A stretch of 48,192 nt of DNA. Origin: Clostridia bacterium (GTDB lineage: Bacteria; Bacillota; Clostridia; Christensenellales; DUVY01). Shown here in pieces: positions 5,372 through 37,918 of the stretch; positions within the stretch are counted from its first letter, which is position 1; the number at the start of each line of letters is the position of its first letter. The DNA lies in assembly GCA_026001225.1 (NCBI GenBank), contig BNZQ01000011.1:1-48192 (forward strand). The letters run 5' to 3'. Both the position numbers and the translations under genes were made by a program. A model generated the notes under the pieces. The model saw only the letters and a list, made by a program, of their open reading frames with translations, was not told where the DNA came from and ran no database searches.

Positions 5372-5445
5372 GCTTTAAAATTTGTCGCGAGGAGAGACTT
5401 TTTACAAAAAGTTCCCCCCTCCGCGCCCCCCTTTTGAAAACTTTC
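5372..5445. repeat. H1 hairpin repeat, copy 1 (imperfect)
   Basis: Inner stem ACTTTTTACAAAAAGT with flanking purine and pyrimidine arms, and a right outer arm CCCCTTTTGAAAACTTTC that matches the left outer arm of other copies in inverse. It probably lies in the opposite orientation to most copies. Confidence 0.6.
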
Positions 5446-5462
5446 ACCTATGCGTTGCGCTG

Positions 5463-5562
5463 CGCTCTGACTTCGGAATCCTGTTCGGATTCCTCGTTTG
5501 ATCGCTCGCTCCGCGCTTCTCCGACCAAACGCGAATCTTTGATTGCGCAAAAATTCGATCGG
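5463..5562 (-). repeat. H2 two-hairpin element, copy 1
   Basis: Contains the hairpin GGAATCC/GGATTCC (about 5475-5493) and the bulged hairpin 5521-5562, which begins CCGACCAAACGCGAAT. The AAACGCG segment is unpaired on one side, as in every other copy. Orientation is inverse to the copies at 6732 and 44452. Confidence 0.7.
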
Positions 5563-5730
5563 ACTTCAAAAGGTTTTACTTTATCATCTCTAATCGGTTA
5601 TGATTTTCAAAACGTCCCGCCGTCCAAATTTGTTGTCATTGGATGTCGTAGGGTCAGGGCAACGTGCGTCGGCCTGCCGTGGAAGCGCAACTTCGCTTAA
5701 AAATTATCTTCCTGCGGGGGGGGGCGGGCT

Positions 5731-5952
5731 TTAATCTGTAAGTCCCAAAAGATAATCGGTTGTTACGTTGAAAAACAAAGCTAATTCTCTTAAGTTTGTG
5801 GCCGTTGGTTCTGTAATTCCTTTTTCCCAATCAAAAACCATGCTTGGGCTGACGCCGAGTTCTTTCGCTAATTTGAGATAGCTTAAACTTTTCTTTTCTC
5901 GCAATTCTTCTAATCGCTCGGCTAAATCTGCATCGATGAATTCGATCTTCCT
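5731..5952 (-). CDS. Small XRE-family HTH protein without a canonical start
   Basis: Reading the minus strand gives an open frame of about 68-73 codons with a clear Cro/CI-type helix-turn-helix: LAERLEELREKK, then YLKLAKELGVSPSMVFDWEK, ending in TTDYLLGLTD. Its last 10 residues match those of the neighbouring regulator (SADYLLGL). No in-frame ATG, GTG or usable TTG exists before the domain; an in-frame TAA lies at 5953-5955. An SD-like AAAGGAAG sits just after the upstream gene's stop, 9 nt before an in-frame ATC (5937-5935). It is either a rare non-AUG start or a decayed gene. It follows the 115-aa regulator by about 20 bp on the same strand. Confidence 0.65.
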   Translation of the reverse strand, partial: RKIEFIDADLAERLEELREKKSLSYLKLAKELGVSPSMVFDWEKGITEPTATNLRELALFFNVTTDYLLGLTD

Positions 5953-5974
5953 TTATTACGTCGCGACGAGGCAA

Positions 5975-6322
5975 CTATTTCGCTTTTAATGCCCGAATGA
6001 AAATTAAAATCTGCTCTTGTTCGCGGTGTGTAAGCGTGCGCAATTCCGCTAAAAGCCTGTGCCCCAATCTCGTCATATTCGGATCGGTTTCCGGCGGGGG
6101 CGTGAATGAACCGTCGTCGTTTTTCAGCCCAAGCAAATAATCGGCCGACACGTTAAAATAAGCCACCAAAGCGGTAATCGCGCTGGCCGAAAGGTCTTTA
6201 TCTCCGCTTTCCCAATGCGCAATAGCCGATTGCGAGTAACCGATGCCTCGTTCTAATTCCTTTTGCGTAAGCCCGTTTTCCGTACGCAACGCTTTTATCT
6301 TTTCCGCTAATCCCACGATCAT
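5975..6322 (-). CDS. XRE-family transcriptional regulator
   Basis: 115-aa protein with an N-terminal Cro/CI-type HTH (about residues 5-60; LTQKELERGIGYSQSAIAHW is the recognition unit) and a C-terminal 50-residue tail (LLAELRTLTHREQEQILIF) that may dimerise. It is divergent from a 58-aa gene, and both promoters overlap a perfect 15-bp inverted repeat. That is the arrangement of an autoregulated repressor, as in phage and integrative-element switches. There is no SD site before the ATG; an extended -10 (TGTTATAAT, minus strand, 6349-6357) lies about 27 bp upstream. The second HTH gene follows it directly. Confidence 0.88.
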   Translation of the reverse strand: MIVGLAEKIKALRTENGLTQKELERGIGYSQSAIAHWESGDKDLSASAITALVAYFNVSADYLLGLKNDDGSFTPPPETDPNMTRLGHRLLAELRTLTHREQEQILIFIRALKAK

Positions 6323-6324
6323 AG

Positions 6325-6369
6325 AATTATTACTATTGTACTATTGAAATTATAACAATAGTAATAATT
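6325..6369. promoter_or_regulatory. Operator: perfect 15-bp inverted repeat between divergent genes
   Basis: AATTATTACTATTGT (6325-6339) and ACAATAGTAATAATT (6355-6369) are perfect inverted repeats separated by 15 bp. A third half-site ACTATTG (6340-6346) follows the first (6332-6338) with 1 bp between. The array covers the minus-strand -10 of the 115-aa regulator and abuts the -35 of the 58-aa gene, so one bound repressor could control both. Confidence 0.8.
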
Positions 6370-6374
6370 GCCTC

Positions 6375-6403
6375 TTGACAGTATTATCATATTTATATAT
6401 AAT
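6375..6403 (+). promoter_or_regulatory. Consensus promoter of the 58-aa gene
   Basis: TTGACA (6375-6380), 17-bp spacer, TATAAT (6398-6403): a full match to the sigma-A consensus. It lies beside the operator palindrome, as expected for a strong promoter kept off by a repressor. Confidence 0.9.
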
Positions 6404-6436
6404 TATTAACAAATGGCTTAAAGAGGTGTAACGGAT

Positions 6437-6613
6437 ATGAACGGCGAAAAAATAGAGGATAAGGATTTATTGCCGACGCTACGGGCGGTGTTGTTGGATT
6501 TACTGAAAAAGCTGTCGCTGAATGAGGAGGAATTAGAGCGGGCGACGCAATTTTTCAAGGCGTACAAGGAACTGATGAGTACGAAAAACAATCTTGACGC
6601 ATTCAAGGGATAA
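6437..6613 (+). CDS. 58-aa acidic helical small protein, divergent from HTH regulator
   Basis: Open frame of 58 codons with an SD-like AGAGGTG 8 nt before the ATG and a perfect consensus promoter. The protein starts MNGEKIEDKDLLPTLRAVLL and is rich in Leu, Glu and Lys; it is likely one or two amphipathic helices with no Cys. I do not recognise the family. Position opposite an XRE repressor with a shared operator suggests an antirepressor, an antitoxin-like partner or a small effector. No function can be assigned from sequence. Confidence 0.75.
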   Translation: MNGEKIEDKDLLPTLRAVLLDLLKKLSLNEEELERATQFFKAYKELMSTKNNLDAFKG

Positions 6614-6731
6614 GCGGATGAAATTCCACGGCGGGCCGACGTACGTTGCCCTGACCCTACGGCGTCCCTCTGAATGATACAAGACGGCGAACCGTTTTGA
6701 AAGTAAAAACCGATTTAAGTCCTATTTAAAT

Positions 6732-6842
6732 CCGACCGAATTTCTGCGAAGTCAAAAATTCGCGTTTGGTCGGAAGGAGCGCGAAGCAATCGGTCAAACG
6801 AGGAATCCGTTAGGATTCCGAGTAGGAGCGAAGCGAAGCGCG
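6732..6842 (+). repeat. H2 two-hairpin element, copy 2
   Basis: Bulged hairpin 6732-6773: CCGACCGAATTT pairs with AAATTCG and GGTCGG, leaving CGCGTTT unpaired. It is followed by hairpin GGAATCC/GGATTCC (about 6801-6818) and a GAGCGAAGCGAAGCGCG tail. The copy at 44452-44560 is collinear over the whole length. Confidence 0.75.
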
Positions 6843-6859
6843 TAAAGAAAGTTCGGCTC

Positions 6860-6888
6860 TTGCTTTTCAGATATAAATATGATATAAT
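6860..6888 (+). promoter_or_regulatory. Promoter of the DUF2207 gene, -10 near start codon
   Basis: TTGCTT (6860-6865), 17-bp spacer, TATAAT (6883-6888), with TGA forming an extended -10. The ATG at 6898 is 9 nt past the box and there is no SD site, predicting a leaderless transcript. Confidence 0.75.
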
Positions 6889-6897
6889 TTTTATATA

Positions 6898-8922
6898 ATG
6901 CCTAAAAGTATCAAAATATTTTTAATCGGCTTTTTGTTGGTTTGGTTCACCGGAATGATTTTGGGAATGTCATACGGCGTCGTCTATGAGCCGCGGACGG
7001 AGAAAATCGGCCGCTATTATCAATACAATCACGATTCGCGCAGCTACGCCGATATCGTCAAGGTCGATTATAAGGGAAGCTTAAGGGGAAACGGCGATCT
7101 CGCCGTCATCGAGATTCTGCATTTCGATATTTACGACGCGAACAGGCGGCCGTTCCGCGAGCTGTACCGCGAGTTCGGCTATTCCGTCGAGGACAATAAA
7201 CGCGGCATCCTGCCCGACGCCGAGACCTTTAAGGTCACGGATATCACGGATTCCGCGAATCCCGCCGAGTTTGCGCGCGCGAGTTCCCAAGGGATCGCCA
7301 ATCGGACGGAAGGCCTGTGGGACTATGCCGACGCCGCATCCAAGACCTATAAGGAATTGCGCTGGTTCGTCAATTTCACGCAAGCGAAGCCCGTTTACAA
7401 AATCGAATATATCTATAAAAACGTTCTCGACGTTTTTCAGGACGCCGTTCAGTTGGACATGATACTGTTCACGGGCGGCGCGATCGGGTATATTCAAGAA
7501 TATGACGCCGAGCTGATTTTCCCGTCGGGCATGACGGACATGGAATCCTTTCGGTATTTTGCGCACAACCAGCCCGACGCCGCCGTGACGAAAACGGGGG
7601 ATTCCGTCAAGTTGCACGCGGACAGGCCGAGGGCCTCCGTCAATAACGATTTGGGCTTTTTGGAGCTGCGTGCGGCGGCGGGTGCGGAGGCGCTCGGCCT
7701 TTTCCCCGACGCGACAAATGTCCGCAAGGATTATACCTATCGGTCGATTTTGCAGGAGGAATGGGATTGGGAGCACGCGGACGAGCTCGCGGCGCGGAGG
7801 GCGCGCACGGAAACGACCGTCGATATCGCGCTGGCGGGCTTAACGGCAGTTCTGCTCTGCTGTTTGGTTCTTTACGTCAAACGCCGCCTGCGCGTGCCGT
7901 ACAAGCCCGCCGCCGTCCATAAATATTACAGCAAGCTGCCCAAATTCGGGCCGACGGTCGCGGGCGTTTTATTGCAATGCAAGACGGGCGCCGCGCCGCG
8001 CCTGCTCGAAGCGGCGGTGATGAGCTTATGCCGAAAGGGCTTTCTCAAGGTCGAGATGCTTTGCGCGGGCGGTGGCTGGACGCAGGACAATATCGGCTTT
8101 ACGACAGGTGAAAGCCTGCCCGCGCCGACGTTCAAAAACTTAAAAGCTGCGTTGCAGACGGGCGTCGCCGTATGGAACGCGTCGCCGCTGCCGCCCTACG
8201 AGGAAGAGGTATTGCGGCTGTTCATCGCAAGCGGCCTCGATTCGGCGTGCCTGTTGCCGCTCACGTCGGTGTTTCCCCCGTATGCGGTCGGCTATGCGCC
8301 GCTCACACGGTTCAGACACGAGGGGGAACGGGCGTGCGACAAGGAATGCGAGCGAAGCGGTTTTTTTCGTCCCGTCGGCGCGCTGACACGGTGGTTCAAC
8401 GCTTTTCTGATGCCGGTCGGCATTATCGTCGGGATCGCCGCTTGCTTCCTGTGCGCGGCGTACACGACGACGCCCTACGGGTTCGCGTGGCTGTTTCCGA
8501 TGGTTTTGCTGTGGGGTACGATTATCACGGGCATCGGTTTTTTGAGCGGCGGACACAAATACGTGTTGACGCAGAGCGGCGCGGACGCGGCGGCGGAGGC
8601 CGCGGGGCTGTACAATTTTTTGAACGGCTTGCCCGCGATTAAGGAAGCCGAAATGCCGCAGTTCGGTCAATGGGAGGAATATTTGGTCTACGCGACGGCG
8701 TTCGGCGTCGCCGACAAGGTTAATAAGGCCCTGTGCGTCCGCTATCCGTCGGAATTCGGTGCGGACGGATACGGCACGGTGCGTCACCTGCGGCGGTTCG
8801 GCTCGATCGCGGCCTTTTCGGGCGTTTCCCGCGCGCTGCGTTCCTCGTCCGCGGCCGCGTCCCGATCGGGCTTGTCCTCGTCGGGCGTGTCTCACGGCAG
8901 CGGCGGCGGCGGAAGGCATTAA
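6898..8922 (+). CDS. DUF2207-family membrane protein
   Basis: 674-aa predicted membrane protein of the DUF2207 family (function unknown). Order: N-terminal TM or signal anchor (about 5-24), an extracytoplasmic beta-rich domain to about 300, a TM helix (about 303-325) followed by a basic KRRLRVPYK stretch, a cytoplasmic domain, a TM pair (about 500-550), a C-terminal domain, and a Ser/Gly tail ending SGGGGRH. Such low-complexity glycine tails are characteristic of this family. It stands alone behind its own promoter, with no SD site before the ATG. Confidence 0.88.
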   Translation: MPKSIKIFLIGFLLVWFTGMILGMSYGVVYEPRTEKIGRYYQYNHDSRSYADIVKVDYKGSLRGNGDLAVIEILHFDIYDANRRPFRELYREFGYSVEDNKRGILPDAETFKVTDITDSANPAEFARASSQGIANRTEGLWDYADAASKTYKELRWFVNFTQAKPVYKIEYIYKNVLDVFQDAVQLDMILFTGGAIGYIQEYDAELIFPSGMTDMESFRYFAHNQPDAAVTKTGDSVKLHADRPRASVNNDLGFLELRAAAGAEALGLFPDATNVRKDYTYRSILQEEWDWEHADELAARRARTETTVDIALAGLTAVLLCCLVLYVKRRLRVPYKPAAVHKYYSKLPKFGPTVAGVLLQCKTGAAPRLLEAAVMSLCRKGFLKVEMLCAGGGWTQDNIGFTTGESLPAPTFKNLKAALQTGVAVWNASPLPPYEEEVLRLFIASGLDSACLLPLTSVFPPYAVGYAPLTRFRHEGERACDKECERSGFFRPVGALTRWFNAFLMPVGIIVGIAACFLCAAYTTTPYGFAWLFPMVLLWGTIITGIGFLSGGHKYVLTQSGADAAAEAAGLYNFLNGLPAIKEAEMPQFGQWEEYLVYATAFGVADKVNKALCVRYPSEFGADGYGTVRHLRRFGSIAAFSGVSRALRSSSAAASRSGLSSSGVSHGSGGGGRH

Positions 8923-9218
8923 CGCGGTTGCTTGCTATCAGCCTCTACGGGTTACGGCTAAAAGTCGCCGCTCGACACGCAGCCACCCCGTCCGCTGCGC
9001 GGCTACCCCTCCGAAAGAGGGGAAATTTTCAGAGGTTGGGATTCCACGGACGCTAACGCGTCCTCTGAATGACAGACAAAGACGGCGGGGTGTTTTGAGA
9101 ATATAGCGGTTGGGATTCTTCACTTCGTTCAGAATGACGCAAAGGCGTTCAGAATGACAGGCAAGATGTTCGAACGGTGGCTTCCGTAAAGTAAATCGAC
9201 CTTATGCGTTTAGAGGGG

Positions 9219-9254
9219 ATTTGGGGGAGGAATCGCAACCTCCCCCAAATTTTT
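9219..9254 (+). terminator. Intrinsic terminator-like hairpin
   Basis: ATTTGGGGGAGG (9219-9230) pairs with CCTCCCCCAAAT (9239-9250), followed by a short T-run. It lies about 300 bp past the DUF2207 stop and would insulate the next gene. Confidence 0.7.
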
Positions 9255-9296
9255 CTCGGCGTTTTTCTAGTATAAAAGAAAGGAGGGGCTCTCTTT

Positions 9297-9326
9297 ATGA
9301 TTTCTTTCTGCATAAAAAGAAAGTAG
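9297..9326 (+). CDS. Possible 9-aa leader peptide
   Basis: A strong SD-like AAAGGAGGGG (9279-9288) lies 8 nt before ATG of MISFCIKRK, then TAG. A TATAAA lies at 9271-9276. A 9-bp hairpin GCTTTCTTT / AAAGAAAGC (9340-9348, 9352-9360) follows 13 nt after the stop. The arrangement resembles an attenuation leader, but it could be chance. Confidence 0.25.
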   Translation: MISFCIKRK

Positions 9327-9470
9327 GTCTCTCGTTGCGGCTTTCTTTTCGAAAGAAAGCATGCCGTTTTTCATAATCCGTCGTTTCAATGCGTATATTT
9401 ATGTGAGGTACAATCGGATGCGGTATTTATCCCATTACCCGATACCCGTTACCTATAAGGGGGCAAAAGA

Positions 9471-10964
9471 ATGAAAAGACGGATAAAAGTCGCGCTTGCC
9501 GCGCTGATGCTGGCGGCGGTCGCTTTATCGGCGTTCGCGTGCGCGGGCGGCGAAATCGCCAAACACGAGAAAAACGTCAATCAATACACGATAGACGCAA
9601 GCTATGACAGCGCGGCGCACGAGATCAACGCGAATTATAAGCTGTCCTATATCAATAACACGGAGATTCCGCTGACCGAGCTGAAATTGCATTTGTACCC
9701 CAACGCCTACCGGCAGGGGGCCAAATATCCGCCCGTGCGCCAAAGCCAAATTGACAAGGCGTATCCGTCGGGAATCGGCTACGGCGACATCGGCGTCACC
9801 GATATTCTTTTGAACGGCAAAGCCGCGCAGGCCGCCGTGGAGGGCGAGGACAAAAATATCCTGCGCGTGACCTTTCCCGCCCAGCTGTATCCGACGGCGC
9901 GCTATACGTTGGAATGCAAATTCAAATTGAAGCTGGCGAAGATCAATCACCGGTTGGGCTATAACGATGTGACCGTCAATTTGGGGAATTGGTATCCCGT
10001 CGCGTGCGTCTATGAGAACGGCGCGTATGTCACGGATCCTTACTACAACAACGGAGATTGCTTCTATTCCGATATCGCCAACTATGAGATCGATTTGAAA
10101 GCCGCCGCCGATTTGAAGGTCGCCGCCACCGGCAATTTGCAGGTTGTCAAAGAAGAAAACAATTTCCGCTTTTACAAAATCAAGGCGTCGGCCGTGCGGG
10201 ACTTCGCGATCGTCATGAGCAGTCAATTTGAAACCAAGGCGGAGCAGGTCGGCGATACCCTCGTGACCTATTACTATTACAAGGACGCCGATCCCGCGCG
10301 GTCGCTCAAAACCTCCGCGGACGCCCTGAAAACCTTTAACGAGCTGTTCGGCAAGTACCCGTATAAGACGCTGGCCGTCGTCAAAACCGCCTTTTTGCAG
10401 GGCGGTATGGAGTACCCTAACCTTGTTTATATTTCCGACGCCGTGAGCGCCGATTATTTTCAAGAGGTGATCGTGCACGAAATCGCCCATCAATGGTGGT
10501 ACGGCCTTGTCGGCAACAACGAGGTCAAGGAAGCGTGGTTGGACGAGGGCCTTGCCGATTACAGCACGACGCTATTTTTCGAAAGGAACGAGGGCTATAA
10601 TATCAAGAAGTCCGATCGAATCATGGAAGCGTTGAAAAGCTATCTGCTGTACGTCGATATCTATCAAAACCTGACCGGCCAGATCGACACCAGCATGAAC
10701 CGTTCGACCAACGCCTATAAGGACGAGTACGAATACGTCTATATGACCTATGTCAAGGGCGAGCTGTTGTTCGACAACCTGCGCACCACCGTAGGCGACG
10801 ACGCGTTTTTTCGGGGGTTAAAGAAATACTATGACAAATATAAATTCACCAATGTGTCCGCGCCCCATTTGATCGGCGCGTTCGAGGGCGCGTCGGGCAA
10901 GGACTTGGGGGGATTTTTCAAGTCGTGGATCGAGGGCAAGATTTATATTGCCGATTTATATTGA
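9471..10964 (+). CDS. M1-family metallopeptidase, exported, probably lipid-anchored
   Basis: 497-aa gluzincin of the M1 aminopeptidase family. The exopeptidase motif GGMEYPN (about 311-317) precedes zinc motif HEIAHQWW (336-343), and the third ligand Glu lies in WLDEGLADY about 20 residues later. The N-terminus is a signal peptide with a lipobox-like AFAC (Cys24); its -2 Phe is atypical, so secretion by ordinary signal peptidase is possible. It is shorter than cytosolic M1 enzymes and lacks their C-terminal helical domain. An SD AAGGGGG lies 7-8 nt before the ATG. Likely role is trimming peptides outside the cell. Confidence 0.92.
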   Translation: MKRRIKVALAALMLAAVALSAFACAGGEIAKHEKNVNQYTIDASYDSAAHEINANYKLSYINNTEIPLTELKLHLYPNAYRQGAKYPPVRQSQIDKAYPSGIGYGDIGVTDILLNGKAAQAAVEGEDKNILRVTFPAQLYPTARYTLECKFKLKLAKINHRLGYNDVTVNLGNWYPVACVYENGAYVTDPYYNNGDCFYSDIANYEIDLKAAADLKVAATGNLQVVKEENNFRFYKIKASAVRDFAIVMSSQFETKAEQVGDTLVTYYYYKDADPARSLKTSADALKTFNELFGKYPYKTLAVVKTAFLQGGMEYPNLVYISDAVSADYFQEVIVHEIAHQWWYGLVGNNEVKEAWLDEGLADYSTTLFFERNEGYNIKKSDRIMEALKSYLLYVDIYQNLTGQIDTSMNRSTNAYKDEYEYVYMTYVKGELLFDNLRTTVGDDAFFRGLKKYYDKYKFTNVSAPHLIGAFEGASGKDLGGFFKSWIEGKIYIADLY

Positions 10965-10966
10965 AC

Positions 10967-11035
10967 TTTTTAGAAGGGGGATTGCGGGGGAAACTTTTTT
11001 TATAAAAAAGTTTCCCCCGCGCCTCTTTTACAAAA
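10967..11035. repeat. H1 hairpin repeat, copy 2
   Basis: Perfect 17-bp inner stem (10984-11000 with 11004-11020, loop TAT): GCGGGGGAAAC paired with GTTTCCCCCGC. The left outer arm is TTTTTAGAAGGGGG. It lies between the M1 peptidase and yabP. Confidence 0.85.
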
Positions 11036-11062
11036 TTTTAATTAAAATAGAAGGAGCGGAAA

Positions 11063-11344: not shown

Positions 11345-11654
11345 GGATTGTTGACAAAGTAAAATTAAGAATTTCAGCGAGCGGTTTTTGAGCAAAAATA
11401 AGCCGTTGAAGAAGTAAAGAAACTTTGTCAACAAGCCCGAATAGCAAGGAGTGGACAATTCGCACTGAAAAAATGTTTTCGGGATATTTTTGAGAATAAA
11501 ATTGTCAAAAAGCGCAAACCGCAGCACCGCTACGGTCGAGCATTTTCGGCGGTTTTAGTCCCAAAAGAGCCAAAAAGATTTTTAGGCGTTTCGCTCCGTC
11601 AGTGCGGTTTGTACACTCCCAAATAGCAGAAGCTTTTATTTTTTCTTAAAAGAT
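11345..11654. other. Intergenic insertion between yabP and yabQ
   Basis: 310 bp where these genes are normally close together. It holds an inverted repeat TTGTTGACAAAGT (11348-11360) / ACTTTGTCAACAA (11422-11434) and a MITE-like unit (11448-11619). No gene is supported. Confidence 0.65.
11448..11619. mobile_element. MITE-like element with terminal inverted repeats
   Basis: 172-bp unit bounded by 20-bp terminal inverted repeats: GGAGTGGACAATTCGCACTG (11448-11467) and, in inverse at 11600-11619, GGAGTGTACAAACCGCACTG (17 of 20 match). AATAGCA occurs just outside both ends, as a target-site duplication would. It encodes nothing. A single related terminus (GGAGTGTACAAATCGCA) occurs near 24417. 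Confidence 0.55.
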
Positions 11655-12036: not shown

Positions 12037-12107
12037 AGTTTTTGAAAAGGGCGTGGGGAAAACTTTTTGTAAAAGGTTTTCCCCGCAAACCCCTTTCAAA
12101 AATTTTT
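12037..12107. repeat. H1 hairpin repeat, copy 3
   Basis: Both outer arms are present: TTTTTGAAAAGGG at left and CCCCTTTCAAAAA at right. The inner stem is GGGGAAAAC/GGTTTTCCCC with one wobble-type difference. It lies between yabQ and divIC. An upstream in-frame ATG at 12042 lies inside it and is not the divIC start. Confidence 0.85.
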
Positions 12108-15270: not shown

Positions 15271-15323
15271 AGTTTTTGAAAAGGGGCACGGGGAAAACCT
15301 TTTTGCAAAAAGGTTTTCCCCGT
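15271..15323. repeat. H1 hairpin repeat, copy 4
   Basis: Perfect 17-bp stem: 15288-15304 with 15307-15323 (ACGGGGAAAACC / GGTTTTCCCCGT). The left outer arm is TTTTTGAAAAGGGG. It ends 2 bp before the -35 box of the next gene. Confidence 0.85.
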
Positions 15324-16187: not shown

Positions 16188-16238
16188 AATTTTTGAAAAG
16201 GGGCGCGGGGAAACCTTTTGAGAAAAAAGTCCCCCGAA
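16187..16238. repeat. H1 hairpin repeat, copy 5 (imperfect)
   Basis: TTTTTGAAAAGGGGCGCGGGG left arm, then AAACCTTTT, then a decayed right arm AAAAAAGTCCCCCG. It lies between the two kinase genes. Confidence 0.7.
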
Positions 16239-17255: not shown

Positions 17256-17258
17256 ACG

Positions 17259-17303
17259 GCGGGGGGAAACCTTTCCAGGAAAACAAGGTTTTCTCTAAAG
17301 CCC
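17259..17303. repeat. H1 hairpin repeat, copy 6 (decayed)
   Basis: GGGGGGAAACCTT and AAGGTTTTCTCT remain as partly paired arms just past the ROK kinase stop. Confidence 0.5.
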
Positions 17304-17591: not shown

Positions 17592-17737
17592 CGCTTCGCT
17601 ATTAACTCGGAAACCAGCGACGCCGGATTTCCTCGCCTTACGCTCGCTTCGCGGCAATCTCCGACCAAACGCGAATTTTTTATGAACATAAAAAATTCGG
17701 TCGGACTTTAATCGGTCGGAGTTTTAATCGGCAATGT
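17592..17737. repeat. H2 two-hairpin element, copy 3 (tandem unit 1)
   Basis: First of two 146-bp tandem units. The bulged hairpin is 17661-17704: CGAATTTTTTATG / CATAAAAAATTCG plus CCGACC/GGTCGG, with AAACGCG unpaired. The GGAAACC...GGATTTCC hairpin precedes it. Confidence 0.8.
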
Positions 17738-17873
17738 CGCTTCGCTATTAACTCGGAAATCGGCGACGCCGGATTTCCTCGTCTTACGCTCGCTTCGCGG
17801 CAATCTCCGACCAAACGCGAATTTTTTATGAACATAAAAAATTCGGTCGGACTTTAATCGGTCGGAGTTTTAA
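17738..17873. repeat. H2 two-hairpin element, copy 4 (tandem unit 2)
   Basis: Near-identical to unit 1, differing in a few bases in the first hairpin (GGAAATCGG instead of GGAAACCAG) and one C/T in the tail. The bulged hairpin is 17807-17850. Confidence 0.8.
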
Positions 17874-18615: not shown

Positions 18616-18671
18616 AAGTTTTTAGAAAGGGGTGCGGGGGAAACCTTTTTATAAAAGGTTTCCCCCGCACG
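18616..18671. repeat. H1 hairpin repeat, copy 7
   Basis: Perfect 18-bp stem: 18632-18649 with 18653-18670 (GTGCGGGGGAAACC / GGTTTCCCCCGCAC), loop TAT. Left outer arm TTTTTAGAAAGGGG. It lies 17 bp past the nifJ stop, so it would be in the 3' end of that mRNA. Confidence 0.85.
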
Positions 18672-27409: not shown

Positions 27410-29356
27410 ATGAATATCGTCGAACTGAAAAACGTCAGCTATACCTATCGCGGCGAAACGCCCGTTAAGGCGGTCAAAAACGTCAGCCTCGAAATCGGGG
27501 AGGGCGGCTTTGTCGCGCTGTGCGGACACAACGGCAGCGGGAAAAGCACGCTCGCGCGGCTGATGAACGGCCTTTTAACGCCCGACGGCGGGGACGTGAC
27601 TGTGGGCGGCATCCCCTTGGGCGGGGAAAAGAAAACCGAAACCGTCAACGGCGTCGAAATGTCCTATGAAAAGCGGCTGTACGAAATCCGCCGAAATCTG
27701 GGCATCGTGTTCCAAAATCCCGACAATCAGACCGTCGCCGCGATCATCGAAGACGATATCGCTTTCGGGCCGGAAAATATCGGCGTGCCGACGGCGGAAA
27801 TCCGCGAACGCGTGGACGCCGCCTTGAAAAGCGTCGGCATGTCCGACTACGCCGAAAAAACCGCCTCGCGCTTGTCGGGCGGGCAGAAACAGCGCGTAGC
27901 GATCGCGGGCATACTGGCCTTGAAGCCCCGCGTGATCGTGCTGGACGAGAGCACCGCCATGCTCGACCCCAAGGGCCGCGCCGAGGTGCTGGACACCGTG
28001 CGCCGCCTCAATCGGGACGAGGGGATCACGATCGTTTTGATCACGCATTTTATGGAGGAAGCCTTACTCGCCGATAAAATCTATATCATGAACGAGGGCG
28101 AAATCTGCTTGTCGGGCGGGCGGGAGATCTTTTGGACGGAACGCGCAAAATTAAAGGAGATCGGCTTGAAAACGCCGCCCGCCGCGGAATTGGCGGAGGC
28201 CTTGCGGCAAGCGGGCGTGCCGGTCGGCCGGGAGGTTTGCGGGGAGGCGGAGCTGGAACAAAGCCTTGCGGAGTTGTTTAGTGGTCAGTGGACAGTGGTC
28301 AATGATCAGTTAGAAGGCGATAGCAAGGGACAAATAAAGGATAGCGGACAGTTAGAGGGTAAGCCTGACCACTGTCCACTGACCACTGACCACTGTTCGC
28401 TGCCCGTCGTTATCGATCAACGCGAATTGTCCTTTTCCTATTCGCCGGATACGGCTTTCCGCGCCGACGCGCTGAAAGAGGTGACGCTGACCGTGCGCGA
28501 GGGGGACTTCCTCGGCGTCATCGGGCACACGGGCAGCGGCAAAAGCACGCTCGTTCAGCATTGGAACGGCCTCATCAAAATGCAAATCCCCAAGCGGAAG
28601 CAGCGGCGGCGCGGCGCGAAACAAGGGACGCTGTTTGTATTGGGGCTGGATTTGAGCCGGAAGGACTACGGCGCGCCGAAGCGGCGCGAAGGTCAAGGAC
28701 GGGGCCGTAAAACGGAGAAAGGACTGCCGGCGTATAAGGCCTTGCGGAGCGCGGTCGGCATGGTCTTTCAATATCCCGAATATCAGCTGTTCGACGAAAC
28801 CGTGTTAAAGGACGTGGGCTTCGGGCCGCGCAATTTAAAGCTGCCGCCCGAAGAAATCGCCGAACGGTGCAAGTGGGCGATCGAGGCGGTGGGCCTCGAT
28901 TATGAAAAGGTGAAAGACATGTCGCCGTTCGAGCTGTCGGGCGGACAAAAGCGGCGGGCGGCGATCGCGGGCGTGATTGCGATGAAGCCGCGCGTCTTGA
29001 TTTTGGACGAGCCGACGGCGGGACTCGATCCGCAGGGCCGCGGGGAAATCATGGACTTGATCCTTAAATTAAAGGCCGAAAGCTGCCCGACGGTCGTCAT
29101 GGTCAGCCACGACATGGACGAGATCGCCCGCCGCTGCAGCCGGATTGCCGTGCTGAACGGCGGGCGGCTGGAATTCGATTTGCCGCCGCCGGAATTGTAC
29201 GGAGCGCACGCGGACAGACTGACCGAAATCGGATTGGATTTGCCGCTGACGGCGCGCCTCGTCCGCGCGTTGCGGAAGCGGGGAATCGAGCTGCCGCAAG
29301 GCATATGCAAGGAAGATGATTTCGTCGCGGAAGCGGCGAAAAGGTTGAAAAGATAA
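27410..29356 (+). CDS. Fused ECF transporter ATPase EcfA1-EcfA2
   Basis: 648-aa double ABC ATPase that powers an ECF-type vitamin or metal importer with EcfT and a separate S component. Half 1 (about 1-285): GHNGSGKST, Q-loop FQNPDNQ, LSGGQKQR, VLDESTAMLDP (EcfA1-type). Half 2 (about 335-648): GHTGSGKST, FQYPEYQ, LSGGQKRR, LILDEPTAGLDP (EcfA2-type). The two genes are normally separate. Here the linker (about residues 289-328) is encoded by TGGTCAGTGG-type repeats in inverted orientation (28277-28308 and 28367-28394). Half 2 also has an Arg/Lys-rich insert of about 45 aa before its Q-loop. ecfT follows. Confidence 0.92.
   Translation: MNIVELKNVSYTYRGETPVKAVKNVSLEIGEGGFVALCGHNGSGKSTLARLMNGLLTPDGGDVTVGGIPLGGEKKTETVNGVEMSYEKRLYEIRRNLGIVFQNPDNQTVAAIIEDDIAFGPENIGVPTAEIRERVDAALKSVGMSDYAEKTASRLSGGQKQRVAIAGILALKPRVIVLDESTAMLDPKGRAEVLDTVRRLNRDEGITIVLITHFMEEALLADKIYIMNEGEICLSGGREIFWTERAKLKEIGLKTPPAAELAEALRQAGVPVGREVCGEAELEQSLAELFSGQWTVVNDQLEGDSKGQIKDSGQLEGKPDHCPLTTDHCSLPVVIDQRELSFSYSPDTAFRADALKEVTLTVREGDFLGVIGHTGSGKSTLVQHWNGLIKMQIPKRKQRRRGAKQGTLFVLGLDLSRKDYGAPKRREGQGRGRKTEKGLPAYKALRSAVGMVFQYPEYQLFDETVLKDVGFGPRNLKLPPEEIAERCKWAIEAVGLDYEKVKDMSPFELSGGQKRRAAIAGVIAMKPRVLILDEPTAGLDPQGRGEIMDLILKLKAESCPTVVMVSHDMDEIARRCSRIAVLNGGRLEFDLPPPELYGAHADRLTEIGLDLPLTARLVRALRKRGIELPQGICKEDDFVAEAAKRLKR
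28277..28395. repeat. Inverted TGGTCAGTGG repeat inside the ecfA fusion
   Basis: AGTGGTCAGTGGACAGTGG on the left is mirrored by CCACTGTCCACTGACCACT on the right; the same motif is intergenic at 24566-24597. It stays in frame and encodes the linker between the two ATPase halves. Confidence 0.8.
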
Positions 29357-31426: not shown

Positions 31427-31432
31427 AAGGGA

Positions 31433-31514: not shown

Positions 31515-31525
31515 AGTAATATAGA

Positions 31526-31966: not shown

Positions 31967-32212
31967 ATGAAGTGAAAAATGAAAGCCGAAAAGTAAAAAT
32001 TTCGGTTGGGATTCTTTACTTCGTTCAGAATGACACCTTGGGCGAATATCTTATTAAATAGCAAAGGTTTGAAAAGGGCGCGAGAAAAACTTTTTGCATA
32101 CAACCGAGGAGCCGAGGGTCGCGGGCAAATGCAGTTTGCGCATGACCGAGGCGACGATGGTTGGAATCGCAGATTCAAAGTTTTTTCCGCGTAAAATAAA
32201 AAAGGATAAAGT
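31967..32212. other. Expanded rplM-rpsI spacer filled with repeats
   Basis: Holds a GATTCTTTACTTCGTTCAGAATGAC repeat (about 32007-32033) and a split H1 copy. The H1 left half is 32061-32100 and the right half 32176-32191, separated by about 76 bp. The insert contains the GACCGAGGCGACGATGG string. Confidence 0.65.
32061..32191. repeat. H1 hairpin repeat, copy 8 (interrupted)
   Basis: CGCGAGAAAAACTTTTT on the left and CAAAGTTTTTTCCGCG on the right would form the H1 stem if the sequence between were removed. Confidence 0.55.
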
Positions 32213-32629: not shown

Positions 32630-32632
32630 GGA

Positions 32633-32699
32633 AACCGCATATATCGCCGGATACGGGCTGCGCTTGGTAAGTCAGCTCGGTCATGGCGGTTTCTTGCTT
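32633..32699 (+). terminator. Long hairpin after rpsI
   Basis: GAAACCGC (32633-32640) pairs with GCGGTTTC (32686-32693), followed by TTGCTTT. The internal CGGGCTGCG...CAGCTCGGTCA string is shared with the ecfT-truA hairpin. Probable terminator of the rplM-rpsI operon. Confidence 0.55.
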
Positions 32700-32821
32700 T
32701 GCGGCGGACGGGACAAAGGCGGCGCGTCCTACGGATTACAATCATTTTCGAAGCGTTACAAGATAATGATGCCTATTCGTCGAGTCGCGGGACAGATGAG
32801 GATTCTAAATAATATAGATAA

Positions 32822-32878
32822 GAATTTTTGAAAGGGGCGCGGGGGAAACTTTTTATAAAAAGTTTCCCCCGCGGAATT
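32822..32878. repeat. H1 hairpin repeat, copy 9
   Basis: Perfect 17-bp stem: 32838-32854 with 32857-32873 (CGCGGGGGAAAC / GTTTCCCCCGCG). Left outer arm TTTTTGAAAGGGG. It ends 11 bp before the trxB start. Confidence 0.85.
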
Positions 32879-32888
32879 TTACAAAGAG

Positions 32889-33803
32889 TTGAACGATCTT
32901 TATGACATCCTCATCTGCGGCGGCGGGCCGGCGGGATTGACCGCCGGAATTTATTGCGCGCGCGGGGGTATGCGGGCGGCGGTATTGGAGCGCATGAGTA
33001 TCGGCGGACAGGCCGCGTTGCCCGAGAATATCGAGAATTATCCGGGATACGGGCATATCGGGGGATATGAACTGACCGACAAAATGCGCGCGCAGGCCGA
33101 GGCCTTGGGCGCGGAAATTCTGTACGACGAGGCGGTTTCCTTTTCGTTAAAATCCAAAATCAAAAAGCTCAAAACGGCGGCGGGGAAGGAATATGCCGCG
33201 CGCGCCGTCATTTTGGCCTTGGGCGCGGGCGCAAGGCCTTTGGGCGCGCCGGGCGAAGCGGAGTTTGCCGGGCGGGGCGTCAGCTATTGCGCGACCTGCG
33301 ACGGCGCGTTCTTTCGGGAGAAAGTGGCTTGCGTGGCGGGCGGCGGAAACACGGCCGCCGAGGACGCGCTGTACCTGGCGCGGTTTACCAAAAAAGTGTA
33401 CTTAATTCATCGGCGCGACGCTTTGCGGGCGGACGCCGCCAACGTCAAAAAAATATCGGCAGAGCCCAAAATCGAAGTTTTATGGAATACCGTCGTGACC
33501 GAAATCGCGGGCGGGAACGCCGTCGAGCGTTTGAAATTGAAAAATACGGTCACGGGCGCGGTTTCCGCGCTTGCAACCGACGCGCTGTTCGTGGCCGTGG
33601 GGCAAACGCCCAACACCGCCGTTTTAAACGGGACGGGCGTCAAGTTGAACGAAAGCGGCTATATATGCGTCAATGAACATATGCGCACGAATATTAAACG
33701 CGTTTACGCGGCGGGGGATTGCACAAATGCGCATTTGAAGCAGATCGTCACGGCCTGTGCAAACGGCGCGGTCGCGGCGAGCACGGCGATACAGGAGTTA
33801 TAG
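32889..33803 (+). CDS. trxB: Thioredoxin reductase
   Basis: 304-aa FAD- and NAD(P)H-dependent disulfide reductase. FAD motif CGGGPAGLTAGIY at the N-terminus, redox-active CATC (Cys134, Cys137) followed by DGAFF, NADPH motif AGGGNTAAEDALY, and C-terminal YAAGDCT plus QIVTACANGAVAA. The start is TTG; there is no in-frame ATG before the FAD motif. Only a weak AAAGAG SD is seen, the H1 hairpin lying just upstream. The key Rossmann helix residues read RRDALRA, close to the NADPH-type HRR pattern. Confidence 0.95.
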   Translation: MNDLYDILICGGGPAGLTAGIYCARGGMRAAVLERMSIGGQAALPENIENYPGYGHIGGYELTDKMRAQAEALGAEILYDEAVSFSLKSKIKKLKTAAGKEYAARAVILALGAGARPLGAPGEAEFAGRGVSYCATCDGAFFREKVACVAGGGNTAAEDALYLARFTKKVYLIHRRDALRADAANVKKISAEPKIEVLWNTVVTEIAGGNAVERLKLKNTVTGAVSALATDALFVAVGQTPNTAVLNGTGVKLNESGYICVNEHMRTNIKRVYAAGDCTNAHLKQIVTACANGAVAASTAIQEL

Positions 33804-33814
33804 TTTTAGGGAAG

Positions 33815-33889
33815 TTTGCGAGAGAAACTTTTTGACAAAAAAGGTTCTCTCGCAAAAGTAAGAAAAGGTTTTTTCTCGCAAATTTTTAT
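33815..33889. repeat. H1 hairpin repeat, copy 10 (variant stem)
   Basis: TTTGCGAGAGAA (33815-33826) pairs with TTCTCTCGCAAA (33845-33856). The GAGAG/CTCTC core replaces the GGGGG/CCCCC of other copies on both arms. A second partial arm (GAAAAGGTTTTTTCTCGCA) follows at 33863-33881. Confidence 0.8.
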
Positions 33890-33929
33890 AAAAAGCACCT
33901 CATGTTGATTCCCCGAATACACTAATACC

Positions 33930-35249
33930 ATGAAAAAACTATTCGGGACGGACGGCGTTCGCGGCGTGGCGAACGCGTCTTTGACGTGCGAAACCGCGTG
34001 CGAACTGGGGAAAGCGCTCGGCGTGTACCTTTTGACCCGGGGATTTCTGAAACCGACCGTCTTTTTGGCAAGGGACACCCGCGTGTCCGGCGCGGCGCTT
34101 GCCGCCGCTTTGAGCGCGGGGCTCTTAAGCGCGGGCACGGACGTGCTGGACGCCGGAGTTTTGCCCACACCCGCCGCCGCGTATCTTGTGCCGTACTACG
34201 CCGCGCACGCCGCCGCCGTGATCAGCGCGTCTCACAACCCGCCCGAATACAACGGGATCAAGCTGTTGGACAGCGCGGGAAAGAAATTTTCCGATACCGA
34301 CGAGGAACGGATCGAGGTTCTGATGAGCGAGCGGTCGCGCTTGCTCACCCGCGAGTTCGGGCGGCCGTACAACTTTTCCGACGCGGCGATCCCCTATTGC
34401 GAGTACATAGCCCACTGCGCCCCTTACAGATTGGACGGCATGAGGATTGTTTTGGATTGCGGCTGGGGCGCGGCGTACGCGGTCGCCCCCCGCGTTTTTA
34501 AGGAGCTCGGGGCCGAGGTCACGGCGATCAACGCGAAAGACAACGGAAGCCTGATCAATTCGGGCTGCGGCGCGGCCTGTCCCGAGGCCGTCGGACGGTA
34601 TTCTCTGGAGCTCGCGCCCTTGGGCTTTGCGTTCGACGGCGACGCCGACCGCTGCATCGCCGCCGAGAACGGAAAGCTTTACGACGGGGATAAGCTGTTA
34701 TATATCCACGCGGAGGAAATGAAACGGCGCGGCGCGCTGAAAGGCGGCGCGGTCGCGGGCACGGTCATGAGCAATCTCGGCCTCGAAAAGGCGTTGGCCA
34801 AATCCAAAATCGAGTTGCGCCGCGCCGACGTGGGCGACAAGTATGTTTTGGAAATCATGGAGAAGGAAGGCTTGAATTTGGGCGGCGAATCCTCCGGCCA
34901 TATCATCTTTCGGAACGAGGCGTCGACCGGCGACGGCACGCTGACGGCCGTCAAAACCGCGTGCCTTGTGAAAAAAAGCGGAAAAAGTTTGGCCGACCTC
35001 TGCGCTTCGCTTGTCGAATACCCGATAAAAATGTATAATATAGAATGGGACGAGAGAGATCCCCTGCAAGTCCCCGCGATTGCCGCCGCTTACGAGGCCG
35101 GAAAACGAACGCTCGGCGACGCGGGCAGGATCGTTTTACGGCGCAGCGGCACCGAACCGAAATTGCGGATCATGGCGCAGGGCGCGGACGCGCTCGCGGT
35201 CGCGGAGGTTGCGATGTCGATCAAAGACGCGGCGGAACGAATTAAATGA
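33930..35249 (+). CDS. glmM: Phosphoglucosamine mutase
   Basis: 439-aa alpha-phosphohexomutase converting glucosamine-6-P to glucosamine-1-P for UDP-GlcNAc. N-terminal MKKLFGTDGVRGVAN, active-site phosphoserine in SASHNPPEYNG (Ser101), Mg site FDGDADRCIA, sugar loop GGESSGHI, and C-terminal RRSGTEPKLR. It is directly followed by glmS, so the two pathway enzymes are linked. A TACACT at 33918-33923 is 6 nt before the ATG without a clear -35 or SD. Confidence 0.97.
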   Translation: MKKLFGTDGVRGVANASLTCETACELGKALGVYLLTRGFLKPTVFLARDTRVSGAALAAALSAGLLSAGTDVLDAGVLPTPAAAYLVPYYAAHAAAVISASHNPPEYNGIKLLDSAGKKFSDTDEERIEVLMSERSRLLTREFGRPYNFSDAAIPYCEYIAHCAPYRLDGMRIVLDCGWGAAYAVAPRVFKELGAEVTAINAKDNGSLINSGCGAACPEAVGRYSLELAPLGFAFDGDADRCIAAENGKLYDGDKLLYIHAEEMKRRGALKGGAVAGTVMSNLGLEKALAKSKIELRRADVGDKYVLEIMEKEGLNLGGESSGHIIFRNEASTGDGTLTAVKTACLVKKSGKSLADLCASLVEYPIKMYNIEWDERDPLQVPAIAAAYEAGKRTLGDAGRIVLRRSGTEPKLRIMAQGADALAVAEVAMSIKDAAERIK

Positions 35250-35255
35250 AACTGA

Positions 35256-35330
35256 AATTTTTTGAATGGGGCGCGGGGAAAACTTTTTTATAAAAAAGTT
35301 TTCCCCGCAAACCCCTTTCCAAAAACTTTC
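35256..35330. repeat. H1 hairpin repeat, copy 11
   Basis: Perfect 17-bp stem 35273-35289 with 35292-35308 (GCGGGGAAAAC / GTTTTCCCCGC). Outer arms TTTTTTGAATGGGG and CCCCTTTCCAAAAA are both present. It fills the glmM-glmS spacer. Confidence 0.85.
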
Positions 35331-35356
35331 GTAATATAAAAGGAAACAGTATTTTT

Positions 35357-37174
35357 ATGTGCGGTATCATCGGGTATACAGGTTCTCAAGATTCGGTTCC
35401 CATATTGTTGCGCGGGCTCACCGCCCTCGAGTACCGCGGATACGATTCCGCGGGCTTGGCCGTCCTGAACGAATACGGCCAAATCGATCTCGTCAAGAAA
35501 AAAGGCCGGATCGCCGAACTCCAAAAAGCGCTGACGGACATATGCGTGTCCGGGCATACGGGGATCGCGCATACGCGGTGGGCGACGCACGGACAGCCCT
35601 CCGACGTCAATTCACATCCGCATATGGACATATCGAACAGATTCGCGATTGTGCATAACGGCATCATTGAAAATTATCTCATGCTCAAACAAGCATTGAT
35701 GAACGAGGGCGTTCTGTTCCGCTCGCAGACCGACACTGAGGTCATCGTCCATTTAATCGCGAAATTCTACATGGGCGATCTGAAAGCGGCGGTGCGCGCG
35801 GCGTTGAAACAGCTAAAGGGAAGCTTTGCTCTGCTCGTGCTGTGCGCGGACAATCCTTCCTCGATCGTTTGCGCCGCCAAGGACAATCCGCTGATCATCG
35901 GCGAGGGGGAGGGCGAGAACTTTATCGCCAGCGACATTCCCGCCTTGCTCGAGCACACTAAAAAAATCTATCGGCTGGCCGATGCGGAAACCGCCGAGGT
36001 CACGCCCGACGGGATCGAGATCTTCGGCGCGGACGGGCAAAGAATTCAAAAGGCCGCCCAGCTGGTCGATTGGGACGTCAACGCCGCGAAGCTGGAAGGC
36101 AATGAGAGCTTCATGCTCAAAGAGATACGCGAAATCCCCGCCGCCCTCGCCAACACGCTGGCGCGGTATACGGGGAAAAGCAACCCCCTTTTAACAATCG
36201 ATAAAAAGGCATTTCAAAATATAGACAAAATTGTGATCGTCGCCTGCGGCACCGCCTATCACGCGGGGCTCGTCGGCAAGTACGCGATCGAAAAACTTGT
36301 CCGTTTGCCCGTCCAAGTGGAGATCGCCAGCGAGTTCCGGTACGGCAATCCGATCGTAGACGCGAGGACGCTGTGCGTCGCGATCAGTCAAAGCGGCGAA
36401 ACCGCCGACACGATCGCCGCCGTCAAGGAAGCCAAGGCGCGCGGCTGCGTCACGCTGGCGGTCGCCAACGTCGTGGGCAGCTCGATCACCTATGCGGCCG
36501 ATTATTCGATTCCCACGCTCGCGGGGCCGGAAATCGCGGTCGCCAGCACCAAGGCCTATAACAGTCAGCTTATGGCGCTGTATTGCTTGTGCGCCCATAT
36601 CGCCAAGGTTCGGGGAACGTTGGACAAAACGGCTTTGCGGGCCTTTTACGCGGGATTGAAAAGATTGCCCGCTTTGGCCAAAAAATTGACCGAGGGCGAC
36701 GGGGGCCTGATCAAACTGGCCGCGAGCTTAAAGAATGAGCACAGTATCTTCTTCTTGGGGCGCGGACTGGATTATTATGTCGCGATGGAGAGCAGCTTGA
36801 AGCTGAAGGAGATTTCCTATATCCATTGCGAGGCCTACGCGGCGGGCGAGCTGAAGCACGGCACGCTGGCTCTCGTCGAGGAGGGGACGGCGGTGATCGT
36901 CCTGTTGACCGAGCGCGCGATCGCGGAAAAGACGCTGAACGCGGTCAGCGAGGTCAAAGCGCGCAGAGCCCGCGTGATCGCGGTCGCGCCCAAAGCCTTG
37001 GATTTGACGGGCGCGCCGATCGACAAAATCGTGCGTATTCCCGACTGCCCCGACCTTTTCGCGCCCGTGTTGAGCATTATCCCCTGTCAAAAGTTGGCCT
37101 ATTACACGGCGCGCGCGCGCGGCTTCGACGCCGACAAGCCGCGGAATCTTGCTAAAAGCGTGACGGTGGAATGA
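35357..37174 (+). CDS. glmS: Glutamine-fructose-6-phosphate aminotransferase
   Basis: 605-aa enzyme making glucosamine-6-P from fructose-6-P and glutamine. It has an N-terminal glutaminase domain with nucleophile Cys2 (MCGIIGYTG), HTRWATHGQPS and HNGIIENY. Two SIS domains follow (VACGTAYHAGLVGKY; ISQSGETADTIAA; FFLGRGLDYYVAMESSLKLKEISY), and the C-terminus is KSVTVE. SD-like AAAAGGAAA lies 12 nt before the ATG. No glmS ribozyme fits in the 107-bp upstream spacer. Confidence 0.98.
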   Translation: MCGIIGYTGSQDSVPILLRGLTALEYRGYDSAGLAVLNEYGQIDLVKKKGRIAELQKALTDICVSGHTGIAHTRWATHGQPSDVNSHPHMDISNRFAIVHNGIIENYLMLKQALMNEGVLFRSQTDTEVIVHLIAKFYMGDLKAAVRAALKQLKGSFALLVLCADNPSSIVCAAKDNPLIIGEGEGENFIASDIPALLEHTKKIYRLADAETAEVTPDGIEIFGADGQRIQKAAQLVDWDVNAAKLEGNESFMLKEIREIPAALANTLARYTGKSNPLLTIDKKAFQNIDKIVIVACGTAYHAGLVGKYAIEKLVRLPVQVEIASEFRYGNPIVDARTLCVAISQSGETADTIAAVKEAKARGCVTLAVANVVGSSITYAADYSIPTLAGPEIAVASTKAYNSQLMALYCLCAHIAKVRGTLDKTALRAFYAGLKRLPALAKKLTEGDGGLIKLAASLKNEHSIFFLGRGLDYYVAMESSLKLKEISYIHCEAYAAGELKHGTLALVEEGTAVIVLLTERAIAEKTLNAVSEVKARRARVIAVAPKALDLTGAPIDKIVRIPDCPDLFAPVLSIIPCQKLAYYTARARGFDADKPRNLAKSVTVE

Positions 37175-37207
37175 TTTGGAATGTATTTCATATGGGAGGA
37201 CAAGAGT

Positions 37208-37525
37208 ATGACCGTAAGCAAGGCGTTTGAAACGTTCGTAAAGGAAGCACCCGCACAACAGGCGGCGTGGATGGAAGCCGTGCAAAAGCTGGACAAGGCG
37301 TCCGCGTTGGATAAAAAAACCGAGGAGATCGCTTATCTCGCCGTACTGGCGGCGGTGCGGTTGGAGAGCGGTTTGCCGTTTCATGTGCAGACGGCCAAAG
37401 CGCACGGCGCGACACGGGAAGAAATTATCAGCGCCATACTCGTGGGGTTGCCCGCCGTCGGGAACGTCGTGATCCAATCATTGCCCGTCGCGTTAGAGGC
37501 GTTTGACAAGGGAGAATCTATATAA
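37208..37525 (+). CDS. Carboxymuconolactone decarboxylase-like protein lacking CxxC
   Basis: 105-aa all-helical protein of the CMD/AhpD-like family: EIAYLAVLAAVRLESGLPFHVQTAKAHGATREE matches the family core. AhpD-type members have CxxC before the conserved His in this core. Here the equivalent positions read ESGLPFH, so the peroxidase or disulfide activity of AhpD is unlikely. SD GGGAGG lies 8 nt before the ATG at 37208, which decides the start over an upstream ATG. It follows glmS by 33 bp. Confidence 0.8.
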   Translation: MTVSKAFETFVKEAPAQQAAWMEAVQKLDKASALDKKTEEIAYLAVLAAVRLESGLPFHVQTAKAHGATREEIISAILVGLPAVGNVVIQSLPVALEAFDKGESI

Positions 37526-37544
37526 ATACAGGGAAATCAGATTT

Positions 37545-37847
37545 ATGAATTTTTTTGAAAGTGTATACGAAGCTGTGAAAGCGATACCCGCCGGGCGCGT
37601 GGCGAACTACGGGCTGATCGCGCGGATAGCCGGCAATCCGCGCATGGCGCGGCAGGTCGGCTGGGCGTTGCATGTCAATCCAGATCCGACGGCGATTCCC
37701 TGCCACCGCGTCGTCACGGTCGACGGCCGGTGCAGCCGGGCTTTCGCGTTCGGCGGCGAAAACACGCAGCGCGAGTTTCTCTTGAAAGAGGGCGTGGGCT
37801 TTACGGAAGACGGCCGCGTGGATATGAAAAAGTACGGTTTGACATAA
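37545..37847 (+). CDS. MGMT-family DNA alkyl-cysteine transferase domain protein
   Basis: 100-aa protein equal to the C-terminal DNA-binding and active-site domain of O6-alkylguanine methyltransferase. FESVYEAVKAIPAGRVANYG, the ARQVGWAL helix, and IPCHRVV with acceptor Cys53. It lacks the N-terminal domain of Ada/Ogt. Since the PCHR cysteine is retained (alkyltransferase-like proteins have Trp there) it may be active. The start at 37545 follows AGGGAAA. Closely spaced after the CMD-like gene. Confidence 0.88.
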   Translation: MNFFESVYEAVKAIPAGRVANYGLIARIAGNPRMARQVGWALHVNPDPTAIPCHRVVTVDGRCSRAFAFGGENTQREFLLKEGVGFTEDGRVDMKKYGLT

Positions 37848-37867
37848 GTATAAAGCATAAAGCTTAA

Positions 37868-37918
37868 AGATTTTTGAAAAGGTGCGGAAAAACTTTTTGC
37901 AAAAAGTTTTTCCGCGAA
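37868..37918. repeat. H1 hairpin repeat, copy 12
   Basis: Perfect 15-bp stem 37884-37898 with 37901-37915 (GCGGAAAAAC / GTTTTTCCGC). Left outer arm TTTTTGAAAAGG. It ends about 11 bp before the next start codon. Confidence 0.85.

Follow-up and report, generated by a model that had tools for sequence, protein, structure and literature searches.

A dispersed intergenic hairpin repeat, H1, whose 5′ arm mirrors and covaries with its stem: a candidate intrastrand triplex DNA element

H1 is a dispersed non-coding repeat whose unit consists of an arm of ~13-17 nt (the putative third strand) followed, after a short linker, by a hairpin of ~15-20 bp, and whose left arm is the mirror image of the hairpin 5′ arm, with G standing opposite stem C. 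Its copies are dispersed between genes, the two stem arms change in a compensatory way, arm and stem covary within the order, and old sites are still occupied in a congener. Taken together, the sequences suggest that evolution has maintained the fold as a three-stranded one. With a little more than even confidence, we favour the explanation that H1 is a non-autonomous, BIME-like DNA repeat in which a strand-switching third strand and a hairpin serve as a signal for copying or retention. Triplex formation itself, action as DNA and a role in spread or mobility are the conjectural parts of this explanation. The broader proposition, that H1 exemplifies a natural strand-switching intrastrand triplex with three-way covariation acting as the copying or recognition signal of a RAYT-independent mobile element across numerous families in a single order and perhaps beyond it, is tentative and we consider it rather improbable as a whole.

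The H1 family in the window and in the source genome

The window analysed here is a stretch of 48,192 nt, contig C11 of the source genome G000, a 2.19-Mb draft in 230 contigs that is 78% complete. A preliminary description had named 12 positions of an abundant intergenic hairpin family within it. All 12 were inspected. In a blind hairpin scan eight of them yielded a clean hairpin; of the other four, three (5372, 16187 and 17259) are imperfect and one (32061) bears a long insert at its tip. Clean copies on the + strand are found at 10967..11039 (arm 10967-10980, hairpin 10983-11021, right outer arm 11022-11039; the sole window copy passing the terminator rule), 15272..15323 (third strand 15272-15286, hairpin 15288-15323, triple score 13.5, between terminator-like and promoter-like sites), 18618..18670 (third strand 18618-18632, hairpin 18632-18670), 32824..32873 (third strand 32824-32837, hairpin 32838-32873, triple score 13.0) and 37870..37916 (third strand 37870-37882, hairpin 37883-37916, triple score 10.5). 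At 33815..33893 (+) the hairpin (33815-33856) lacks a good third strand (score 6.0), and another partial arm reaches 33893. Two + strand copies are double-armed: 12038..12102 (third strand 12038-12051, hairpin 12053-12086, right outer arm 12090-12102) scores 13.0 and 9.0 on the two strands, and 35257..35326 (third strand 35257-35271, hairpin 35273-35308, right outer arm 35312-35326) scores 13.5 and 11.5.

Among the imperfect copies, 5386..5444 lies on the − strand, with its hairpin at 5386-5425 and a third-strand-like arm at 5426-5444, 5′ of the hairpin on that strand (covariance-model match of 48 bits on −). At 16190..16236 (+), overlapping an intergenic region, lies a decayed copy with its third strand at 16190-16203 and an imperfect hairpin at 16207-16236 (model match of 47 bits), and 17257..17295 (+) is a degenerate hairpin remnant with no clear third strand and no model match. 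The long-tip variant at 32066..32191 (+) has its arm at 32066-32078 and a base stem at ~32079 and 32191 around a structured insert. This long-tip subfamily (window 32057-32202), with roughly 70 nt inserted at the hairpin tip, has six relatives in the congener G001 (L119-L124). When the window was searched against Rfam at gathering score, H1 matched no known RNA family, the sole match being a tRNA.

A degenerate pattern for the inner hairpin gave 47 matches per strand in G000, some of them overlapping, and none when the pattern was read backwards. We built a covariance model from 34 copies; nine of its 15 pairs show change on both sides, bearing out the earlier impression that the inner-stem arms change together. 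The search with such a model that the preliminary description had called for returned at least 149 matches on the two strands of G000, merging into at least 90 distinct loci (a lower bound, 150 of 1564 candidates having been scored), and further matches in other genomes of the order. The family is indeed abundant. Nine of these at least 90 loci fall in the 48-kb window, which is thus rich in H1. Copies are unevenly spread among the G000 matches listed, with nine on the window contig, six on the 24-kb contig C28 and one each on the larger C1, C4, C6 and C7.

The outer arms had been regarded mainly as an outer stem, a view for which we find no support: the left arm instead mirrors the 5′ stem arm. 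The single-armed form is the commoner one in every group (38 single-armed and 17 double-armed in G000, 24 and 6 in G001, 23 and 0 in G018, 59 and 10 in the others, every copy in these tallies having been picked by triple score).

Other repeats were noticed in the window. An AT-rich hairpin occurs twice, at 17672-17699 and 17818-17845, 146 bp apart and the same over the printed stretch, and CAGTGGTCAGTGGAC-like units are repeated in both orientations at 28275-28405, inside the long ORF 27410-29356. Another repeat of ~170 bp, at about 11448-11623, is matched several times in G001, in three cases close to a contig start, and a repeat at about 39195-39268, adjoining the tRNA at 39116-39188, has many short matches there.

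The mirror arm and its covariation with the stem

The mirror or base-triple relation of arm to stem had been overlooked in the earlier reading. It is readily seen in another family, that of G018, where the copies inspected mostly have one arm, mirroring the 5′ stem arm with G replacing C (arm TTTTTT-GG-AAA-GGGG, 5′ stem GGGGG-AAA-CC-TTTT). The relation is kept with other letters in several families and extends to unequal C positions, which are mirrored too: the G355 arm TTTTCTTT-GG-A-GGGAG stands against the stem GAGGG-AA-CC-TTTCTTTT, and the two types of G126 pair TTTCTC-GG-AA-GGGG with GGGG-AAA-CCC-TCTTT and TTCCTT-GGG-AAA-GGGG with GGGG-AAAA-CC-TTTCCTT.

The letters of the arm match what would be required of a third strand lying first antiparallel along the purines of the 5′ arm and then parallel along those of the 3′ arm. 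The predicted triples are G.G-C, A.A-T and T.A-T in the antiparallel half and, past the switch, T.A-T, C.G-C or G.G-C. A third strand that changes purine strand midway forms an alternate-strand triplex, and the parallel G.G-C triple is known, although the exact phrase 'alternate-strand triplex' does not occur in the literature searched. Antiparallel G.G-C, A.A-T and T.A-T and parallel T.A-T and C.G-C are described in PMC4666352. G on C-G in parallel orientation, the usual case at the H1 switch, is missing from the parallel triples given in the available text of that source; for this triple we refer to PMC4807104.

In 78 of 144 cases the third strand falls short of the stem arm by 1 nt, the usual difference, and the gap cannot be placed within runs. 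When aligned by identity alone, stem C lies opposite G 143 times and opposite C 68 times. Plain mirror identity is as good as the triple code by overall score (3.60 vs 3.44), and both a direct repeat and Watson-Crick pairing to either stem arm are weaker than these two, in a comparison set that was itself picked by triple score.

Triple scores of at least 10 were reached by 171 of 514 real sides vs 5 of 514 with shuffled arms. Taking one model match per genome, arms fit their own stems better than swapped ones, which keep the composition (10.92 vs 8.83, sd 0.35; 0 of 20,000 permutations reach the own value). This test used 24 of 27 genomes, G248, G066 and G395 having no hairpin at threshold, and G000 entered it by its 35256 copy, not by its best match. 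A stricter form, in which one orientation per genome was set without the triple score and nine of the 24 genomes were dropped because two or no sides passed, gave 11.23 vs 8.71 for 15 genomes (0 of 20,000). The same holds for 63 arm-and-stem sides from loci of the order fetched after the idea was formed, from which copies already seen were removed and whose sides were chosen by a loose text rule: 9.67 vs 7.35, 0 of 20,000, with the same outcome for the 62 distinct sequences.

Within single genomes, eight of 19 could be tested, the rest having fewer than four sides. Covariation is positive in six, the own score being reached by 0 of 1000 permutations in G000, G001 and G022, 1 in G126, 6 in G242 and 33 in G301; G018 and G045 show none (640 and 498 of 1000). 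Feature tests used the 162 of 514 sides that could be parsed. At a defined position, GAG in the arm goes with GAG in the stem (present in both on 21 sides, in the left arm alone on 14, in the stem alone on 4 and in neither on 123; Fisher p 1.5e-13, and 3.6e-7 in G000 and G001 alone), as does C in both pyrimidine tracts (p 4e-10), these p-values being given without multiple-testing or tree correction and overstating independence, as copies are related. Run lengths of arm and stem correlate (rho 0.56 for A runs, 0.65 for G runs), and the number of stem C correlates with that of arm G at rho 0.27 overall, −0.05 in G000 and −0.48 in G018.

Outside the order, own pairing scored 8.67 and swapped pairing 9.11 (n = 15; 16,949 of 20,000 permutations reach own) in a set made up largely of one near-identical type whose hairpins close poorly, where the swapped score is the best of four options and the own score the best of two. 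A second set gave 10.50 vs 9.88 (n = 6; 5,975 of 20,000), which is not significant. Third strand and stem thus covary within the order, and outside it no covariation was seen in these two sets.

Distribution, gene context and persistence

Among the matches listed, the model finds H1 in 27 of 396 genomes of the order, in 17 of 142 genera, G000 included. In a sample of the class (391 genomes) five genomes besides G000 have a match, and in a sample of the phylum (398 genomes) G532 alone besides G000. The exact core pattern is present in 31 stretches of named genomes: 12 JAISOS, 11 JAISFM and 1 JAITNT (Clostridiales MAGs), four Clostridia MAGs, one Oscillospiraceae, and two records that may be mis-binned contigs, one labelled Verrucomicrobiota and the other Auribacterota. 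There were 0 matches to it in viral contigs.

Most G000 copies stand alone. Where palindromes are neighbours at <330 nt, 18 of 33 pairs are inverted with arms inward, five of these 18 involving another palindrome as judged by eye. Pair partners are of unlike type in G022, G126, G242 and G114, and in G022 they stand around a further hairpin, in composites of ~210 bp (L193-L198) with two unlike H1-type hairpins flanking the third; in one such composite the third hairpin is altered on both arms.

Placement between co-directional genes, as the preliminary description had it, does occur, but the direction of the element is not fixed to transcription. Such single-armed copies run along the genes in 59 cases and against them in 37 (21:7 in G000, 11:7 in G001, 12:7 in G018, 15:16 in the others), a slight excess along genes, and 17 convergent and 6 divergent placements add to these. 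The hairpin end often lies no more than tens of bases from a start or stop codon, as far as our home-made gene calls, with approximate starts, can tell.

Aligned segments of the window are 66-89% identical in the congener G001. Sites 5372 and 17259 were left out of the comparison; eight of the ten assessable sites hold a copy there (10967, 12037, 15271, 18616, 32061, 32822, 33815 and 37868), and the 16187 and 35256 sites have none. Anchoring by aligned sequence is two-sided in five of the eight (12037, 15271, 32061, 32822, 33815) and one-sided at 10967, where the G001 copy is cut by a contig end, at 18616, where it is degenerate (33 bits), and at 37868. The long-tip site 32061 has a short form in G001 and the copy at 32822 a changed stem. 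At 37868, arm, stem and complement have changed together: GAAAAGG / GGAAAAAC / GTTTTTCC (arm / 5′ stem / 3′ stem) in G000 stands against GAAAAGAG / GAGAAAAAC / GTTTTTCTC in one G001 copy. A similar change to GAG separates the genomes at 12037; both 12037 and 37868 have several G001 copies each, which makes one-to-one descent uncertain. Across such sites two or three segments are altered together. Since eight of ten sites are occupied in the congener, with different stems, the family is not the product of a single recent burst, in line with the preliminary description, and old sites that are still occupied imply that copies last. Four of 20 G001 stretches (L131, L138, L142, L145) open at a contig start that falls within an H1 hairpin, as if the assembly breaks there.

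Readings of the fold and comparison with known systems

In the triplex explanation, a passage through a single-stranded DNA state (lagging strand, nick or transfer) would let the hairpin close, after which the 5′ segment would dock back in its groove, antiparallel to the 5′-stem-arm purines near the base and parallel to the 3′-stem-arm purines near the tip. Copying or retention of the repeat would depend on this fold as its signal, and H1 would be a BIME-like, non-autonomous element, settling between genes and persisting there. Inverted pairs, the spread of the long tip and the patchy distribution suggest such an element. DNA is favoured over RNA as the acting molecule because purine-motif triplexes do not form in RNA according to PMC4666352 and directions are mixed. 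Against this explanation we count the nulls in G018 and G045, the out-of-order results, identity scoring as well as the triple code, the parallel G on C-G outside the set of PMC4666352, the failure of that study to see a stable in-cell triplex of the E. coli motif and the slight excess along genes. Neither an empty site nor a target duplication nor a mobilising enzyme was found for H1, which also counts against it.

The stems had been read as an RNA or DNA signal. Their compensatory changes are confirmed; a terminator or processing signal in RNA fares badly, as one of 12 copies meets the terminator rule. An RNA element without a triplex, be it a terminator, a processing site or an mRNA-stability hairpin between genes, would account for strong, compensated stems, for copies adjoining stop and start codons and for the gene-direction excess (59 vs 37, and 21 vs 7 in G000), but it leaves the mirror arm unexplained and has to accommodate both directions as well as the 17 convergent and 6 divergent placements, which makes it quite unlikely; the intrinsic terminator in particular was rejected, the required T tail being absent from 11 of 12 window copies. 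ENE-type triplexes protect mRNA or block nucleases, and an H1 transcript could be imagined to do likewise as a hairpin plus third strand. The same covariation would then be expected, and U.A-U and C.G-C triples do occur in RNA (PMC4666352), but roughly half the arm would have to use purine-motif triples, which that source rules out for RNA, and the direction relative to genes is mixed, so that we regard this as an unlikely alternative.

Dispersed intergenic hairpins, with 18 of 33 neighbour pairs inverted (five of the 18 with another palindrome by eye), also recall REP/REPIN-type repeats, in which case a RAYT (Y1) transposase would move H1 and recognise it by the mirror arm. Recognition of this kind does not call for a mirror of the stem, and no Y1_Tnp was found in G000 (78% complete). 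A Y1 match is present in four of 15 carriers vs five of 15 non-carriers, several of these genomes being incomplete, and G018, G045, G022 and G126 have none; a RAYT-driven REP fits poorly, Y1 showing no association with carriers, and we hold it to be very improbable. No greater credit is given to the view that H1 is an ordinary palindromic repeat whose mirror arises spuriously from run-rich sequence and common descent. The arms are indeed made of short runs, copies are related, and the effect is missing from two genomes and from the sets outside the order, but swapped arms of the same composition fit worse, unequal C positions are mirrored in several families and G stands opposite C; template switching, moreover, would repair inverted repeats and would not be expected to create mirror repeats.

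If H1 is an intrastrand triplex repeat, it bears on the question of whether such repeats ever act as triplexes. Arm-stem covariation is the type of evidence that established RNA structures, and the many natural subfamilies, of which a single genome can hold two or more, make a direct arm-exchange test possible. Intrastrand triplex repeats are already known, and what is new in H1 is the 5′ third strand, the strand switch and the covariation. In the literature searched, which excludes subscription papers such as the original PIT papers, we found neither a description of the H1 family nor a report of arm-stem covariation for a triplex repeat.

Of the systems that resemble H1, intrinsic terminators share a GC-rich stem near gene ends and differ in the T tail, lacking in 11 of 12 window copies. 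REPINs and BIMEs are extragenic palindromes with inverted doublets, presumed non-autonomous (PMC3116915); REPINs, unlike H1, accompany RAYT genes, and a mirror arm is absent from the REPIN description in the available text of that source. H-DNA has mirror symmetry and third-strand pairing in common with H1, but there one homopurine tract lies in duplex DNA (PMC4666352), whereas in H1 the purines alternate strands and the duplex is the hairpin.

The nearest known kind is that of the BoxC/PIT/TM repeats of proteobacteria: BoxC/PIT/TM_ECO are short intergenic multi-copy repeats, patchy among relatives, with a hairpin and a third strand on one DNA strand, and the E. coli motif also forms close inverted pairs, type A with type B (PMC4666352). 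That motif folds as a triplex in vitro, and footprints in cells gave no support (PMC4666352). At the level of sequence, H1 likewise has a third strand plus hairpin on one strand by triple rules. Elements of its type are passed over by the earlier search rule, ITxF, which calls for three stems, all of the same class and 6-15 nt long, with loops of 1-6 nt: our re-implementation detected the control motif, and it caught four of 177 H1 copies with stems of 8 or more and 17 of 177 with any stem. TM_ECO is GC-rich and of class II, its third strand being 3′ of the hairpin, with one purine strand (PMC4666352). Its C-rich, G-rich, G-rich pattern is, by inspection, unlike the H1 sequences inspected, in which the arm is 5′ of the hairpin and the sequence is another one. 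H1 is longer and run-rich, with a 5′ third strand in which a class I part would be joined to a class IV part.
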